DNA of 64,000 bases from Halorubrum trapanicum (GTDB lineage: Archaea > Halobacteriota > Halobacteria > Halobacteriales > Haloferacaceae): assembly GCF_002355655.1 (NCBI RefSeq), contig NZ_AP017569.1, positions 496,001 through 560,000 on the forward strand, read 5' to 3'. Below, one piece after another: positions 47,648-54,792 of this stretch. The number at the start of each line of letters is the position of its first letter. Within the stretch, counting starts at the first letter, position 1. The translations under genes and the position numbers were made by a program. The notes beneath the pieces were generated by a model, which had not been told where the DNA came from, made no database searches, and saw only the letters and a program-made list of their open reading frames with translations.

Positions 47648-47806
47648 TGACCCTTTCCCCGACCGGATCGCCCCCCGAGCGACCGCGTTCGCGGTCGCGG
47701 GAGAACGCTGACCGGGGCCAGCGTCGACCCCGCGGCGCCCGTCGCCGTGCCGCGCGCCGCGTCGCCCGACAGGAATTTATACCCCGGCCGCGTTGCTCCG
47801 GGCGAG

Positions 47807-47881
47807 ATGCGACGGCACACCGCGGCCGCGGAGCGCGCGAGCGTCCCGGGAGCCGTCGCGCCGATTATTGTAGGGGTATAA
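47807..47881 (+). CDS. Candidate leader peptide of the ilvB operon
   Basis: ATG 47807 lies 25-33 nt after the TATA-like AATTTATACC, so it would be the 5' end of a leaderless mRNA. The 24-residue product ends APIIVGV. These last codons are ATT ATT GTA GGG GTA TAA, whereas neighbouring genes use almost only ATC, GTC and GTG. The final GTA GGG GTA TAA forms the left side and loop of a hairpin. A run of regulatory amino acids at a hairpin is the hallmark of bacterial ilv attenuation; archaeal use is my inference. Confidence 0.5.
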   Translation: MRRHTAAAERASVPGAVAPIIVGV

Positions 47882-47889
47882 CCCCCTAC
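47870..47889 (+). promoter_or_regulatory. Hairpin at the end of the leader ORF
   Basis: GTAGGGG (47870-47876), loop TATAAC, CCCCTAC (47883-47889) gives a perfect 7-bp stem whose loop carries the leader stop codon TAA. A ribosome on the Ile/Val codons would cover the left arm. The TATAA in the loop could instead be a second promoter box with a palindromic operator. Confidence 0.5.
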
Positions 47890-48035
47890 ACTACCCCTTC
47901 CTCACCGACGCGACGCACCGCCGAACGCCGGCGGCCGGGCCGTTTCCCGCGCGTGGAGCGTTCGCCCGTTCGTCCCGCGTTCGCAGCGACCGACACGACA
48001 ACCCGCCAGATGCCACACCGCACACCACTACGACA

Positions 48036-49847
48036 ATGAGCGACACAGCAGCACAGCCGCGATCCGACGGCGACGAGGCCGACGACTCGTCGGCCGAGAC
48101 CGCGACCGAGGAGCCGACCGAACCGGACGACGAAGGGGCCGCAGGCCCCGTCTCGACCGGCGCCGAGTCGGTCGTCGCCGCCCTCGAGGCCGCGGGCGCG
48201 AAGACCGCCTTCGGCGTTCAGGGCGGCGCGATCATGCCCGTCTACGACGCGTTGTACGACTCCTCGATCCGGCACGTGACGATGGCCCACGAGCAGGGCG
48301 CCGCCCACGCCGCGGACGCGTACAGCGTCGTCGCCGGCGAGCCGGGGCTCTGTATGGCCACGTCCGGGCCGGGCGCGACGAACCTCGTCACCGGCATCGC
48401 CGACGCGGACATGGACTCGGACGCGATGCTGGCGCTGACCGGTCAGGTCCCGACCGAGTTCGTCGGCAACGACGCGTTCCAGGAGACGGACACGGTCGGC
48501 GTCACGCGCCCCATCACGAAGCACAACTACTTCGCGGGCGGCGCGGACACCGTCGGCGACACGGTCGGCGAGGCGTTCGAGCTGTCGCGGGCGGGGCGTC
48601 CCGGCCCGACGCTGGTCGACCTCCCGAAGGACGTCACGCAGGACGACACCGACCGGACGCCCGGTCCGGCGACGGCCCCCGCGGGGACCGACCCCGACCC
48701 GAACGCGGACCAAGAGGCGGTCGAGGAGGCCGCTCGCGCCATCGAGTCGGCGGAACGGCCCGTCTGCCTGTTCGGCGGCGGCGTGATCAAGGCCGACGCG
48801 AGCGACGAGGCGCGGACGTTCGCCCGGAGCTACGGGATCCCGGTGACGACGACGATGCCGGGGATCGGCTCGTTCCCCGAGGACGACGACCTCTGCCTCT
48901 CGTGGGCGGGGATGCACGGCACCGGTTACGCCAACCTCGCGATCACTCACACCGACTGCCTGATCGCGGTCGGCACGCGGTTCGACGACCGGCTCACCGG
49001 CGGGATCGATACGTTCGCGCCCGAGGCCGAGGTGATCCACGTCGACATCGACCCCGCGGAGATATCGAAGAACGTCCACGCCGACTACCCGCTGATCGGC
49101 GACGCGGGCCGCGTGTTGGACCAGCTGACGGCGGCGGTCCGCGAGGCGCCCGACGCCGAGGCGTGGCGCGACCGGTGCGAGGAGTGGAAGGAGACGTACC
49201 CGCTCACGTACGCGACGCCCGACGACGAGCCGCTGAAGCCGCAGTTCGTCGTCGAGGCGTTCGACGAGGCGACCGACGACGACACGATCGTCACCACCGG
49301 CGTCGGCCAACACCAGATGTGGGCCTCGCAGTTCTGGACGTACTCGGAGCCCCGGACGTGGGTCTCCTCGCACGGGCTCGGCACGATGGGGTACGGCGTG
49401 CCCGCCGCGGTCGGCGCGCGCGTCGCGGCCGACACGATGGGCGAGGCGGACCGCGACGTGGTGTGCTTCGACGGCGACGGCTCCTTCCTGATGACGATGC
49501 AGGAGCTGTCGGTGGCGGTCCGCGAGGAGCTGGACATCACGATCGCGGTGCTGAACAACGAGTACATCGGGATGGTGCGCCAGTGGCAGGACGCCTTCTA
49601 CGAGGGCCGCCACATGGCCTCCGACTACACGTGGATGCCCGAGTTCGACAAGCTCGCGGAGGCGTTCGGCGCCTTAGGCCTCCGCGTCGACGACTACGAC
49701 GAGGTCGCGCCCGCGGTCGAGGAGGCGCTCGACTACGAGGGACCGGCCGTGGTCGACTTCCACGTCGACCCCGAGGAGAACGTCCTGCCGATGGTGCCGA
49801 GCGGCGGCGCGAACGGGAAGTTCGCGGCCGCGGAGGACCAGCTATGA
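48036..49847 (+). CDS. ilvB: Acetolactate synthase large subunit
   Basis: Thiamine-diphosphate enzyme making acetolactate or acetohydroxybutyrate, the common step of valine, leucine and isoleucine synthesis. It has 603 residues. After an acidic extension of about 40 residues come the TPP-N domain (GVQGGAIMPVYDALYDSSIR, HEQGAAHAADAYS), the middle FAD-binding domain, and TPP-C with GDGSFLMTMQELSVAV and NNEYIGMVRQWQDAFYEGRH. It overlaps ilvN by 4 bp (ATGA). Confidence 0.95.
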   Translation: MSDTAAQPRSDGDEADDSSAETATEEPTEPDDEGAAGPVSTGAESVVAALEAAGAKTAFGVQGGAIMPVYDALYDSSIRHVTMAHEQGAAHAADAYSVVAGEPGLCMATSGPGATNLVTGIADADMDSDAMLALTGQVPTEFVGNDAFQETDTVGVTRPITKHNYFAGGADTVGDTVGEAFELSRAGRPGPTLVDLPKDVTQDDTDRTPGPATAPAGTDPDPNADQEAVEEAARAIESAERPVCLFGGGVIKADASDEARTFARSYGIPVTTTMPGIGSFPEDDDLCLSWAGMHGTGYANLAITHTDCLIAVGTRFDDRLTGGIDTFAPEAEVIHVDIDPAEISKNVHADYPLIGDAGRVLDQLTAAVREAPDAEAWRDRCEEWKETYPLTYATPDDEPLKPQFVVEAFDEATDDDTIVTTGVGQHQMWASQFWTYSEPRTWVSSHGLGTMGYGVPAAVGARVAADTMGEADRDVVCFDGDGSFLMTMQELSVAVREELDITIAVLNNEYIGMVRQWQDAFYEGRHMASDYTWMPEFDKLAEAFGALGLRVDDYDEVAPAVEEALDYEGPAVVDFHVDPEENVLPMVPSGGANGKFAAAEDQL

Positions 49848-50551
49848 GCGGCGACGCCTCGGACGACGCGGCCGTCGCGGACGGCTCGCGCACGACTCCC
49901 GACGCCGACTCCCGACCGCTCCCGGACGAACAGCCCGGGCCGGACGACCGCGACCATCCCGAGGGGCGCCGGAACCTCGAAGGGATCCGGATCGACCCCG
50001 TGGTCGAGGCCGAACACGAGTCGCGGCGCGCGGTTATCTCCGCGCTCGTCGAGGACGAGCCCGGCGTGCTCGCGCGCGTCTCCGGGCTCGTCTCTCGCCG
50101 GCAGTTCAACATCGAGAGCCTGACGGTCGGGCCGACCACCGTCGACGGCCACTCGCGTATCACGATGGTCGTCGAGGAGACGGACCCCGGCATCGACCAG
50201 ATAGAAAAGCAGATGGCGAAGCTGAAGCCGGTCATCTCGGTCGGCGAGGTCGCCGGCGACGCGGTCACCTCCGAGCTCGTCTTACTGAAGGTCGAGGCCG
50301 ACGACCCGGCCGCGGTCCACGCCGTCTCCGAGATGTACGACGGCCGGACGGTCGACGCCGGCCCGGAGACGATCACCGTCGAGCTCACCGGCGACAAGGC
50401 GAGCATCGACAACGCGATCGGCGCCTTCGACCGGTTCGGCATCGTCGAGATCGCGCGGACCGGGCCGACCGCGCTCGCGCGCGGAGACACCCCGACGGCC
50501 CCAGGAGAGAAACCCGGAACGGCCGGCGAACCGACCACCCACGACGACTGA
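49844..50551 (+). CDS. ilvN: Acetolactate synthase small (regulatory) subunit
   Basis: Regulatory partner that confers valine feedback control and full activity. The 235 residues contain an acidic N-terminal extension of about 55, an ACT domain (AVISALVEDEPGVLARVSGL, RRQFNIESLTVGPT) and the C-terminal ALS_ss domain ending FDRFGIVEIARTGPTALARG. It is coupled to ilvB by a 4-bp overlap and followed by ilvC after 12 bp. Confidence 0.95.
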   Translation: MSGDASDDAAVADGSRTTPDADSRPLPDEQPGPDDRDHPEGRRNLEGIRIDPVVEAEHESRRAVISALVEDEPGVLARVSGLVSRRQFNIESLTVGPTTVDGHSRITMVVEETDPGIDQIEKQMAKLKPVISVGEVAGDAVTSELVLLKVEADDPAAVHAVSEMYDGRTVDAGPETITVELTGDKASIDNAIGAFDRFGIVEIARTGPTALARGDTPTAPGEKPGTAGEPTTHDD

Positions 50552-50563
50552 CACACGATACAC

Positions 50564-51622
50564 ATGACCGAAGACGACACGCAGACGTTCGACTCGACAG
50601 TATACTACGACGACGACGCCGACGAGGAGGCCATCGCCCACAAGACGGTGGCCGTCCTCGGCTACGGCTCGCAGGGCCACGCCCACGCGCAGAACCTCTC
50701 CGAGAGCGGGGTCGACGTGATCGTCGGCCTCCGCGAGGACAGTTCCTCCCGGAGCGCCGCCGAGAGCGACGGGCTCCGCGTGGAGACCCCCGCGGACGCG
50801 GCCGCCGAGGCCGACGTGGTGAGCGTCCTCGTCCCCGACACGGTCCAGCCGGACGTGTACGAGGCGGCGATCGAGCCGAACCTCGACGCGGGCGACACGC
50901 TCCAGTTCGCGCACGGGTTCAACATCCACTACAACCAGATCCAGCCGCCGGAGGACGTCGACGTGACGATGGTCGCGCCGAAGTCGCCGGGCCACCTCGT
51001 CCGCCGCAACTACGAGAACGACCAGGGGACGCCCGGGCTGCTCGCGGTGTACCAGGACGCGACCGGCGACGCCCACGACGAGGGGCTCGCGTACGCGGCC
51101 GCGATCGGCTGCACCCGCGCCGGCGTCGTCGAGACGTCGTTCCGCGAGGAGACGGAGACCGACCTGTTCGGCGAGCAGGCCGTCCTCTGCGGCGGCGTCA
51201 CCTCCCTCGTCAAGCAGGGGTACGAGACGCTGGTCGACGCCGGCTACTCCCCGGAGATGGCGTACTTCGAGTGTCTCAACGAGCTGAAGCTCATCGTCGA
51301 CCTGATGTACGAGGGCGGGCTCGGCGAGATGTGGGACTCCGTCTCGGACACCGCCGAGTACGGCGGGCTCACGCAGGGCGACGTCGTCGTCGACGAGCAC
51401 GCCCGCGAGAACATGGAGGAAGTCCTCGAGAAGGTCCAGAACGGCCAGTTCGCCCGAGAGTGGATCGCGGAGAACCAGGCGGGTCGACCCTCCTACACGC
51501 AGCTCCGGAACGCGGAGAAGAACCACGAGATCGAGGCCGTCGGCGACGAGCTGCGCGGGCTGTTCGCGTGGGAGGAGTCCGCCGAAGACGACGAGGAGGA
51601 GAGCGCCGAGGTGACCGCCTGA
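50564..51622 (+). CDS. ilvC: Ketol-acid reductoisomerase
   Basis: NAD(P)H and Mg-dependent isomerisation and reduction of acetolactate. The 352 residues are the short class I form. [16 protein letters not shown] binds the cofactor, [14 protein letters not shown] and [11 protein letters not shown] are active-site loops, and the C-terminal knotted domain has [19 protein letters not shown] with the metal-binding Glu. An acidic tail is typical of halophiles. Confidence 0.95.
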
Positions 51623-51714
51623 TGGGCGTCGGCGGCGACGCGAACCGGACCGACGAGGCCACGCAATCCGCGCGGGCCACGCGACCCACGCGCCACGCGG
51701 GTGAGTCCCGATGA
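51622..51714 (+). CDS. Possible 30-residue ORF coupling ilvC to leuC
   Basis: The ATG overlaps the ilvC stop (TGATG) and its TGA overlaps the leuC ATG (ATGA), so the frame fits exactly between the two genes. The product [20 protein letters not shown]... is low-complexity without domain. It may only carry ribosomes from ilvC to leuC. Its reality is uncertain. Confidence 0.35.
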
Positions 51715-53132
51715 GCGAGGGGACGCTGTACGACAAGGTGTGGGACCGCCACAAGGTGACTCGGTTACCGACCGGACAGGACCAGCTGTTCGTCGGGCTC
51801 CACCTCGTCCACGAGGTCACCAGCCCGCAGGCGTTCGGCATGCTGAAGGAGCGCGATCAGGAGGTCGCGTTCCCGGAACGCACCCACGCCACGGTCGACC
51901 ACATCGTGCCCACGGGCAACCGCGACCGGCCCTACCGCGACGAGGCCGCAGAGAGCATGATGGCGGAGTTAGAGGAGAACGTCCGCGGCTCGGGGATTGA
52001 CTTCTCCGACCCGGACTCCGGCGATCAGGGGATCGTCCACGTCATCGGCCCGGAGCAGGGGCTCACCCAGCCGGGGATGACGATTGTCTGCGGCGACTCG
52101 CACACGTCGACGCACGGCGCGTTCGGCGCGCTGGCGTTCGGCATCGGCACCTCGCAGATCCGCGACGTGCTGGCGACGGGCTGCGTCGCCATGGAGAAAC
52201 AGAAGGTACGCAGGATCGAGGTCACCGGCGAGCTCGGCGAGGGCGTCACCGCGAAGGACGTCATCCTCACGATCATCGGGAAGCTCGGGACCGACGGCGG
52301 CGTCGGCTACGTGTACGAGTACGCCGGCGAGGCCATCGAGGACCTCGGGATGGAGGGACGGATGTCCATCTGTAACATGTCGATCGAGGGCGGCGCCCGC
52401 GCGGGGTACGTCAACCCCGACGAGACCACCTACGAGTGGCTGAAGGAGACGGACGCCTTCGAAGATGACCCCGAGGAGTTCGAGCGACTGAAACCCTACT
52501 GGGAGTCGATCCGGACCGACGACGACGCGGAGTACGACGACGTGGTCACCATCGACGGCTCGGCGATCGAGCCGACCGTGACGTGGGGGACCACGCCCGG
52601 ACAGACCGCGGGCATCACCGAGCCGATCCCGGACCCCGACGACCTGCCCGAGGAGGACCGCGACACGGCGCGGCGCGCGCAGAAGCACATGCGCGTCGAG
52701 CCCGGCGACACGATGGAGGGGTACGACATCGACGTGGCGTTCCTCGGCTCGTGTACCAACGCGCGCCTGAAGGACCTCCGCGAGGCCGCGGCGTTCGTCG
52801 AGGGCCGCGAGGTCGACGACGATGTGCGCGCGATGGTCGTCCCCGGCAGCCAGCGCGTCCGCGACGCCGCCGAGGCCGAGGGGCTCGACGAGATCTTCAA
52901 GCGGGCCGGCTTCGACTGGCGCGAGCCCGGCTGTTCGATGTGTCTCGGCATGAACGACGACCAGCTGGAGGGCGACGAGGCGAGCGCCTCCTCCTCGAAC
53001 CGGAACTTCGTCGGCCGGCAGGGCTCGAAGGACGGGCGCACCGTGCTGATGAGTCCGATCATGGTCGCGGCCGCGGCGGTGACCGGCGAGGTCACCGACG
53101 TCCGCGAGATGGAGGAGGTGGCGACCGTATGA
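51711..53132 (+). CDS. leuC: 3-Isopropylmalate dehydratase large subunit
   Basis: Aconitase-family [4Fe-4S] subunit isomerising isopropylmalate in leucine synthesis; 473 residues. Signatures are [32 protein letters not shown] with the first cluster Cys, and [14 protein letters not shown] with the other two. It acts with LeuD, whose gene overlaps by 4 bp. DKVWDRHKV at the start is the classical LeuC N-terminus. Confidence 0.95.
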
Positions 53133-53797
53133 GCTCGCCCGAGTTCAGCGACGGCGAGGCGCCGGCGGAGAAGGTCACCGAGGTCTCCGGCACCGGGATC
53201 CCGGTCCGGGGCAACGACATCGACACCGACCAGATCATCCCGGCGCGGTTCATGAAGGTCGTCACCTTCGACGGGCTGGGCCAGTTCTCCTTCTTCGACC
53301 AGCGGTTCGACGACGAGGACAACGAGAAGGACCACCCGTTCAACGAGGAGAAGTACAGGGGCGCGAACGTCCTGGTCGTCAACGCCAACTTCGGCTGCGG
53401 CTCCTCGCGCGAGCACGCCCCGCAGGCGCTGATGCGCTGGGGGATCGACGCCGTCGTCGGCGAGTCGTTCGCGGAGATCTTCGCGGGCAACTGCCTCGCG
53501 CTCGGGGTTCCGACGGTCACGGCCGACCAGGAGGACATCGAGGCGCTCCAAGACTACGTCGAGGCCAACCCCGACGCCGAAGTCGACATCGACGTGGCCG
53601 AGGAGACGGTTACCTACGGCGACACCGTGATCGACGCGGAGGTCCACGACGCGCAGCGGAAGGCGCTCGTCGAGGGCGTCTGGGACACCACGGCGCTGAT
53701 GGGCGCGAACGCCGGCGCGGTCCGCGAGACCGCCCGGTCGCTGCCGTACGTGCCGGACGAACACGTGTCCGAGCCCGCCGCGGGGGACGGCGCGTGA
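53129..53797 (+). CDS. leuD: 3-Isopropylmalate dehydratase small subunit
   Basis: Swivelling-domain subunit of LeuCD; 222 residues. [20 protein letters not shown] and [20 protein letters not shown] are family signatures. The first 25 residues are an acidic extension. It overlaps leuC and leuB by 4 bp each. Confidence 0.95.
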
Positions 53798-54792
53798 GCC
53801 ACGAGGTCGTCGTCATCGAGGGCGACGGGATCGGCCGCGAGGTCGTCCCCGCCGCCGTCGAGGTGCTGGAGGCGCTTCCGGTCGACTTCGAGTTCGTCGA
53901 GGCGGACGCGGGCGACGCGACGAAGGAGGCGACCGGCGAGGCGCTCCCGGCGGAGACGTACGATCTCGCCGCCGACGCGGACGCGACGCTGTTCGGCGCG
54001 GCCGGCGAGACGGCCGCCGACGTCATCCTCCCGCTCCGGGACGCCGTGGACTCGTTCGTCAACGTCCGGCCCGCCAAGGCGTACCCGGGCGTCGACGCGC
54101 TCCGCCCGGAGACCGACGTGGTGTTCCTCCGCGAGAACACCGAGGGCGTCTACTCCGGCCACGAGGACCGCCTGTCGGACGACCTCTCGACGCTGACGCG
54201 CGTCGTCACCTCGTCGGCCTCGCGCGAGCTGGCCGAGTACGCCTGCGAGTTCGTCGAGGACGGCCGCGGCCCCGCGGGCGACCCCGACGAGGGGTTCACC
54301 GTCGCGCACAAGGCGAACGTGATGCGCGAGACGGACGGTCGGTTCCGCGAGGAGGTCATGACGGTCGCCGCGGAGCGCGGCGTCGACGCCGACGAGGAGC
54401 TGATGGACGCGTTCGCGACGAAGCTCCCGCTCGACCCGACGCAGTACGGCGTGGTCGTCTGCCCGAACCTCGCGGGCGACGTGCTCTCCGACCTGGCCGC
54501 CGGGCTCGTCGGCGGGCTCGGCCTGCTGCCGTCGGCGAACGTCGGCCACGATAACGCGCTGTTCGAGCCGGTTCACGGCACGGCGCCTGACATCGCGGGC
54601 GAGGGGATCGCCAATCCGACCGCGGCGATCCTCTCGGCCGCCATGCTGTTAGAGTACCTCGGGCACGTCGAGGCTGGCCAGCGGGTGCGCGACGCCGTGG
54701 AGGGCGTCCTCTCCGACGGGCCGCGCACCGGCGACCTCGGCGGTGCGGCGACGACCGACGAGGTCACCGCGGCGATCGTCGATCGGTTGTAA
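53794..54792 (+). CDS. leuB: 3-Isopropylmalate dehydrogenase
   Basis: NAD-dependent decarboxylating dehydrogenase; 332 residues. [64 protein letters not shown] and [20 protein letters not shown] are all present. GTG 53794 overlaps the leuD stop (GTGA). Last gene of the branched-chain operon. Homoisocitrate or isocitrate dehydrogenase is less likely given the setting. Confidence 0.95.

Follow-up and report, generated by a model that had tools for sequence, protein, structure and literature searches.

Introduction

Leader-peptide attenuation is a textbook bacterial mechanism that needs ribosomes travelling close behind RNA polymerase. In the Rho-dependent attenuation of the E. coli tna operon a halted ribosome controls access to C-rich, G-poor RNA after the leader stop codon, as it might in the haloarchaeal ilvB leader described here; unlike in that leader, however, stalling on tnaC requires tryptophan and an arrest peptide. 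Archaea are not known to have Rho; aCPSF1/FttA is the candidate analogue. Attenuators are also found at ilv genes, in enterobacteria and at ilvBNC of Corynebacterium (PMC11857589), and ilvB leaders with terminators have been predicted in actinobacteria (PMC1262725).

Here, we analyse the sequence upstream of ilvB in the haloarchaeon Halorubrum trapanicum. Like the bacterial ilv leaders, it presents a short ORF after the promoter, branched-chain control codons and an adjacent RNA hairpin, and its target is the same enzyme. Unlike them, it has an archaeal promoter, a probably leaderless start, a stop codon inside a single hairpin and no evident antiterminator, and a G-poor C/U tract replaces the U run; we claim no sequence homology. 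We propose, with a probability of roughly 0.8, that this leader is a ribosome-mediated attenuator sensing charged Ile-tRNA and Val-tRNA.

Several properties of haloarchaea bear on this proposal. The transcription and translation machineries interact in H. volcanii (PMC8576121), and aCPSF1/FttA binds nascent RNA, from which a coupled ribosome has been proposed to exclude it (PMC8116511). According to Babski et al. 2016 (PMC4983044), 72% of the protein-coding transcripts of H. volcanii are leaderless, and transcribed 5'-UTRs contain uORFs, including those of pheS and of a tryptophan-tRNA ligase (Table 2 of that paper). These are likewise short ORFs in the 5'-UTRs of haloarchaeal amino-acid-related genes; in the section concerned, ilvB is unlisted, attenuation is unmentioned and there is no analysis of codons or hairpins. 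The open literature that we searched, a scope outside which subscription papers and preprints fall, held nothing relevant on archaeal leader-peptide attenuation, which does not prove priority, and neither attenuation nor leader peptides come up in a 2025 review of H. volcanii.

The ilvB Leader of Halorubrum trapanicum

The window, i.e., the whole stretch of 64,000 nucleotides that was analysed, contains an ilvB-ilvN-ilvC-leuC-leuD-leuB operon (Table 1). Directly 5' of ilvB, whose product is up to 96% identical to proteins of named Halorubrum species and so places the window in or next to this genus, lie 388 nt without a long gene. The genes from ilvN to leuB-like share the strand of ilvB and overlap or are closely spaced, and they are the probable remainder of its operon.

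Table 1. Features of the ilvB leader and operon, in positions of the window.
Feature	Position	Strand	Basis or remark
Core promoter: conserved CGACAGG (BRE-like) and TATA box TTTATA (47776-47781)	47767-47781	+	Read directly
uORF1, 24 codons, leader peptide MRRHTAAAERASVPGAVAPIIVGV followed by stop	47807-47881	+	Kept in 108/110 haloarchaeal ilvB loci
Control codons ATT ATT GTA (Ile Ile Val)	47864-47872	+	
Putative attenuator hairpin GTAGGGG-TATAAC-CCCCTAC, uORF1 stop codon in loop	47870-47889	+	Predicted folding and conservation
G-poor stretch and pyrimidine tract (CCCCTTCCTC), candidate pause/termination signal	47887-47903	+	Directly 3' of hairpin
uORF2, MPHRTPLRQ followed by stop; TGA overlaps ilvB ATG (ATGA)	48010-48039	+	
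ilvB, acetolactate synthase large subunit	48036-49847	+	NCBIfam TIGR00118, above cut-off
ilvN	49844-50551	+	NCBIfam
ilvC	50564-51622	+	NCBIfam
leuC	51711-53132	+	NCBIfam
leuD	53129-53797	+	NCBIfam
leuB-like	53794-54792	+	NCBIfam
Probable remainder of ilvB operon (ilvN to leuB-like)	49844-54792	+	Shared strand, overlaps or close spacing

A sequence-only reading of this DNA had proposed an attenuation-type leader peptide, with a TATA box before ATG 47807, a 24-codon ORF ending Ile-Ile-Val-Gly-Val in codons rare in this DNA, and a perfect 7-bp hairpin formed by the last codons. All of these elements were recovered, and the proposal itself is supported by conservation at ilvB and by the codon contrast with valS (see below). 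The TATA box lies 31 nt upstream of the ATG, which is the spacing expected for a leaderless haloarchaeal mRNA, and uORF1 is probably leaderless. Its 3' end reads ATT ATT GTA GGG GTA TAA. In eight ORFs of the window, ATT accounts for 2 of 100 Ile codons and GTA for 4 of 306 Val codons; in all fetched ilvB genes, these codons represent 6.4% of Ile codons and 0.4% of Val codons, respectively. The arms of the hairpin occupy positions 47870-47876 and 47883-47889, with the TAA in the loop.

A second stem is formed inside uORF1 by GCGACGGC (47809-47816) and GCCGTCGC (47852-47859), joining the start of uORF1 to the codons that precede the Ile codons. This perfect 8-base stem is clear and kept in Halorubrum. 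We left it out of our model because only 11 of 45 loci had a comparable stem at P<=0.05; beyond Halorubrum, such stems are confined to some lineages.

Distribution of the Leader

We compared 80 named ilvB loci (one of which, L022, is without upstream DNA), 30 loci from further haloarchaeal families and the window, giving 110 usable loci. The presence of a short ORF ending in Ile/Val, which the sequence-only reading had singled out for comparison among haloarchaeal ilvB leaders, proved strongly conserved: the leader device is present in 108 of the 110 loci. The two loci without it (L110 and L111) are deep-branching, with 57-59% identity, and their lack of the device counts against the attenuator model proposed below. 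The common layout consists of a TATA-like hexamer, an ATG, an unconserved body, an I-V-G-A/V end before the stop, a GGGG/CCCC hairpin and a G-poor pyrimidine tract. The hexamer begins 30-36 nt upstream of the uORF1 ATG in all 108 loci, and uORF1 has 16-55 codons, commonly 24-33. At the end of the leader, GTA is found in 108/108 loci, GGG in 107/108 and an Ile codon preceding GTA in 105/108 (ATT in 73 and ATC in 32), and the stop codon is TAG in 64 loci, TAA in 28 and TGA in 16.

To guard against circularity, the ATG was chosen by TATA score alone and in any frame. The chosen ATG shared the frame of the Ile-Val codons in 106 of the 108 loci, and the remaining 2 gave ties. Of the five codons preceding the motif, 14.6% are Ile, vs 0.9% earlier in the peptide. 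Among 32 Halorubrum-type uORF1 of 24 codons, variation in the first half is spread about evenly over the codon positions, and that in the second half falls mostly on the third.

A covariance model of the element (R1) was built from 37 loci. Of 194 haloarchaeal genomes, 188 have a match, and these represent 63 of 65 genera; most of the matching genomes had no part in building the model. Over 295 genomes of the phylum, matches were confined to the order of the window, with the exception of one weak match (E 0.046); it is the only one among approximately 240 non-haloarchaeal genomes of the phylum and we take it as chance. Within the H. trapanicum genome itself, the ilvB site is the only significant one, the next two matches (E 3.8 and 5.5) being without the leader layout, and plasmid records yielded no match. 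We also scanned de novo 2.4 Mb (79%) of the genome of another haloarchaeon, G032, for a TATA box, a short ORF, a stop codon in a hairpin loop and a G-poor tail. The ilvB leader was the only clear case; the valS gene of G032 falls outside the scanned part. A scan for codon runs gave too much noise to be informative. Related genomes are non-independent observations and relatedness inflates some of these counts; the contrast between ilvB and valS inside the same genomes is the comparison least affected.

Structure at and Downstream of the Control Codons

The hairpin has a median predicted energy of -11 kcal/mol across 61 loci, and its pair probability is near 1 whether the leader is folded as nascent or as full RNA. 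In 98.9% of cells the stem GGGG(C/U)/(G/A)CCCC is paired, and two positions show compensatory changes; no shuffle reached the observed values of pairing or covariation, and pairing drops to 40-78% when the partner is shifted. Pairing is kept by changes such as GGGCC/GGCCC and T:A vs C:G, and the nearly invariant arms leave room for only a modest number of covarying changes. In 103 of 108 loci the uORF1 stop codon falls at or inside the loop, and loop length and arm spacing vary between genomes. GTA is invariant even in the many loci that lack the GTA:TAC extension of the stem. The 5' arm begins at this Val codon, a geometry that would allow a ribosome on the control codons to mask the hairpin.

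Downstream of the hairpin, G is mostly at 0-3% and at most at 10% at offsets 2-17 after the CCCC arm, and T peaks at offsets 11-16, reaching 64% at offset 13 (61 loci). With this spacing, the hairpin would lie just outside a polymerase positioned on the tract. The tract has few U in GC-rich genomes. Some loci present U-richer tracts, namely L045 (Haloquadratum), L093 and L105 (ATTTTTC, TTATTTC and ATTTTC), as expected of a U-tract termination signal.

The sequence-only reading had also pointed to a second GC-rich hairpin at 47918-47934. This hairpin is kept in close relatives and broken in other Halorubrum (e.g., L012 and L016), and we rejected it as a general terminator since it is unconserved beyond the close relatives. 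No conserved competing antiterminator helix was evident in 61 loci, where the main hairpin dominates nearly every predicted fold. The ilvB leader therefore appears to work like an attenuator but not like one of the classical three-helix (trp/his) type. A search of Rfam 15 with the window leader and six representative loci returned no credible match.

A Model of Attenuation

In the model that we favour, the transcript would start at or just upstream of ATG 47807 and ribosomes would load on uORF1 at once. With ample Ile and Val, the ribosome would read ATT ATT GTA GGG GTA fast and leave at the stop codon. After its release, GTAGGGG/CCCCTAC would fold just behind an RNA polymerase sitting on the pyrimidine tract, and the folded hairpin would promote polymerase pausing and release, possibly with help from aCPSF1/FttA, which would lower expression of the operon. 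Under a shortage of Ile or Val, the ribosome would halt on the Ile/Val codons and cover the 5' arm; the hairpin would stay open and transcription would proceed into ilvBNC-leuCDB, with uORF2 handing ribosomes to ilvB by termination-reinitiation at ATGA. A ribosome with Ile/Val in its A site would cover the GTA GGG G arm, which is why a starved ribosome would keep the hairpin open. A difficulty for the model is that release at the stop codon must be fast, since a ribosome parked there would keep the hairpin from forming. Our evidence, all of it comparative, shows the anatomy of the leader, its conservation, its codon specificity and the contrast with valS; transcription from 47807, translation, stalling, masking and the direction of control are what we infer from this arrangement.

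Premature transcription termination is the output that we favour and hold to be fairly likely, and it is the least certain step of the model. It is favoured because the hairpin and the pyrimidine tract are fixed, because ilvB lies at a variable distance from them, and because a masked hairpin has no consistent opening effect on the ilvB start. Against it stand the low U content of the tract in GC-rich genomes and the description of intrinsic termination in archaea as hairpin-independent, no need for hairpins being known there (PMC7289017). Given this property of archaeal termination, the unconserved second hairpin and the lack of an evident antiterminator, the bacterial mechanism cannot be transferred unchanged.

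Alternatively, stalling on uORF1 might alter the access of ribosomes to uORF2 and then to ilvB, without any premature termination. We consider such translational control rather unlikely. In most loci uORF2 ends on the ilvB start, and few ATGs between uORF1 and ilvB are placed so as to draw ribosomes elsewhere. In a reduced set of 60 loci, this gap contains 67 ATGs, of which 55 share the uORF2 frame (P 3e-16, without correction for relatedness), and in 14 loci it contains none. For 60/60 loci we took the ilvB start to be ATGA or GTGA, a form given preference where several starts were possible. In H. volcanii, genes that overlap at ATGA have been shown to be coupled in translation through termination-reinitiation (Huber et al. 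2019, PMC6728339). The overlap tested there is also that of uORF2 and ilvB, and uORF2 probably couples translation to ilvB, but the upstream partner is here, unlike in those pairs, a tiny ORF within a regulatory leader. Against translational control as the output, the hairpin lies 76-333 nt upstream of ilvB, and masking it changed the accessibility of the ilvB start by +0.03 on average, with a rise >0.1 in 13 of 61 loci and a fall in 2. Such control would also give the conserved G-poor pyrimidine tract no role. Sequestration of the ilvB start site, as in translational attenuators of the erm/cat type, was rejected because masking the hairpin had no consistent effect on accessibility.

Leaders of valS and the Identity of the Control Codons

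In several families, a second R1 match was found upstream of valS, whose product was confirmed as a valyl-tRNA synthetase by NCBIfam TIGR00422. The valS leaders examined belong to families f3, f4 and f7 (L155-L159, L161-L168, L188-L197 and L212-L218) and end in sequences such as VFVGAP, VRVGAS and PVVGAV; no valS leader was found in the Halorubrum, Haloferax-type and f2 genomes checked. In 25 valS leaders, the four codons preceding GTA comprise 29 Val and 0 Ile in 100 positions, vs 177 Ile in 432 positions at ilvB, and Ile directly precedes GTA in 0/25. The R1 search was biased against Ile-less leaders because the model itself contains an Ile codon. In these leaders, codon identity follows the amino acid concerned. 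A swap from Ile to Val with the downstream gene fits a sensor of charged tRNA, and it would not be expected of a binding site or of a chance ORF.

The conserved C-terminal sequence adjoining the stop codon could instead indicate a sequence-specific arrest of the nascent peptide by the I-V-G-A end, similar to TnaC or SecM, rather than a shortage of charged tRNA. This appears very unlikely: valS leaders read V-F-V-G-A, V-R-V-G-A or P-V-V-G-A at this position and one ilvB leader reads L-V-L-V-G-A, such that amino-acid identity tracks the pathway and not an arrest motif, and Gly-Ala is explicable by the GGGGC stem. Still less probable is that a repressor (e.g., of the Lrp type) uses the palindrome as its DNA operator and that the short ORF is incidental. 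GTAGGGG...CCCCTAC is indeed a near-perfect palindrome downstream of the promoter in the window, but its variable arm spacing fits an RNA hairpin and not a DNA operator; the motif is locked to the frame of the TATA-positioned ATG, the stop codon nearly always falls at or inside the loop, and which of the Ile/Val codons are present depends on the downstream gene. We rejected the operator on the grounds of spacing, frame locking and codon identity. Finally, small proteins are common in haloarchaea (PMC4983044), but that uORF1 encodes one with its own function, its position upstream of ilvB being secondary, is the least credible reading of all, as its body is unconserved and of variable length, its first half lacks a third-position bias, and conservation is limited to the last codons and the RNA hairpin.

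Some individual leaders deserve mention. Those of valS in f4 share a further conserved sequence, CCGTTTCGACGGATGTATTG, just downstream. A second ilvB paralogue (L169, G068:C1:2346877-2346927) has its own leader of the valS-like type, ending SPVFVGAA before the stop. At L160 (G122:C2:397902-397952, minus strand), the leader MRQLDTDSHTAPASGGAVGARLIVGV, with stop codon, and its hairpin have no recognisable long gene behind them, and this locus is possibly a decayed ilvB copy.

Leaders of Other Amino-Acid Genes

It is slightly more probable than an even chance that haloarchaea use ribosome-mediated attenuation generally (Ile/Val at ilvB, Val at valS and Phe at pheS), with hairpin-assisted and possibly aCPSF1/FttA-dependent termination. 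A conserved haloarchaeal device with gene-matched codons would extend attenuation to a second domain. If true, it would imply a hairpin-assisted termination step unlike described archaeal terminators, and would provide functional evidence for tight coupling of transcription and translation in archaea, which would become testable in vivo. It would also run counter to the views that RNA hairpins play no part in archaeal termination and that haloarchaea do not typically have structured leaders, and would offer an Ile/Val-responsive control element for a genetically tractable group.

Outside the branched-chain pathway, Babski et al. 2016 (PMC4983044) report a uORF of 23 aa located 5' of the tryptophan-tRNA ligase HVO_A0127 in H. 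volcanii. We found no Trp leader at trpS on the G032 chromosome. A short ORF ending in a run of Phe (...GFGFFFA before the stop) precedes 11 of 15 haloarchaeal pheS genes (L341, L342, L343, L344, L346, L347, L348, L350, L351, L352 and L353). These pheS leaders suggest independent support for leader peptides at haloarchaeal amino-acid genes and for a general strategy. The ORF lies approximately 660-770 nt upstream of the pheS match (for example MASEPHAGRTGHKRVAAPGFGFFFA, with stop codon). It is followed by a different covarying RNA structure with a conserved internal loop (CGGYGGA ... GACGAAACCG), which has no match in Rfam, and the pheS leader looks like a separate, Phe-responsive device.
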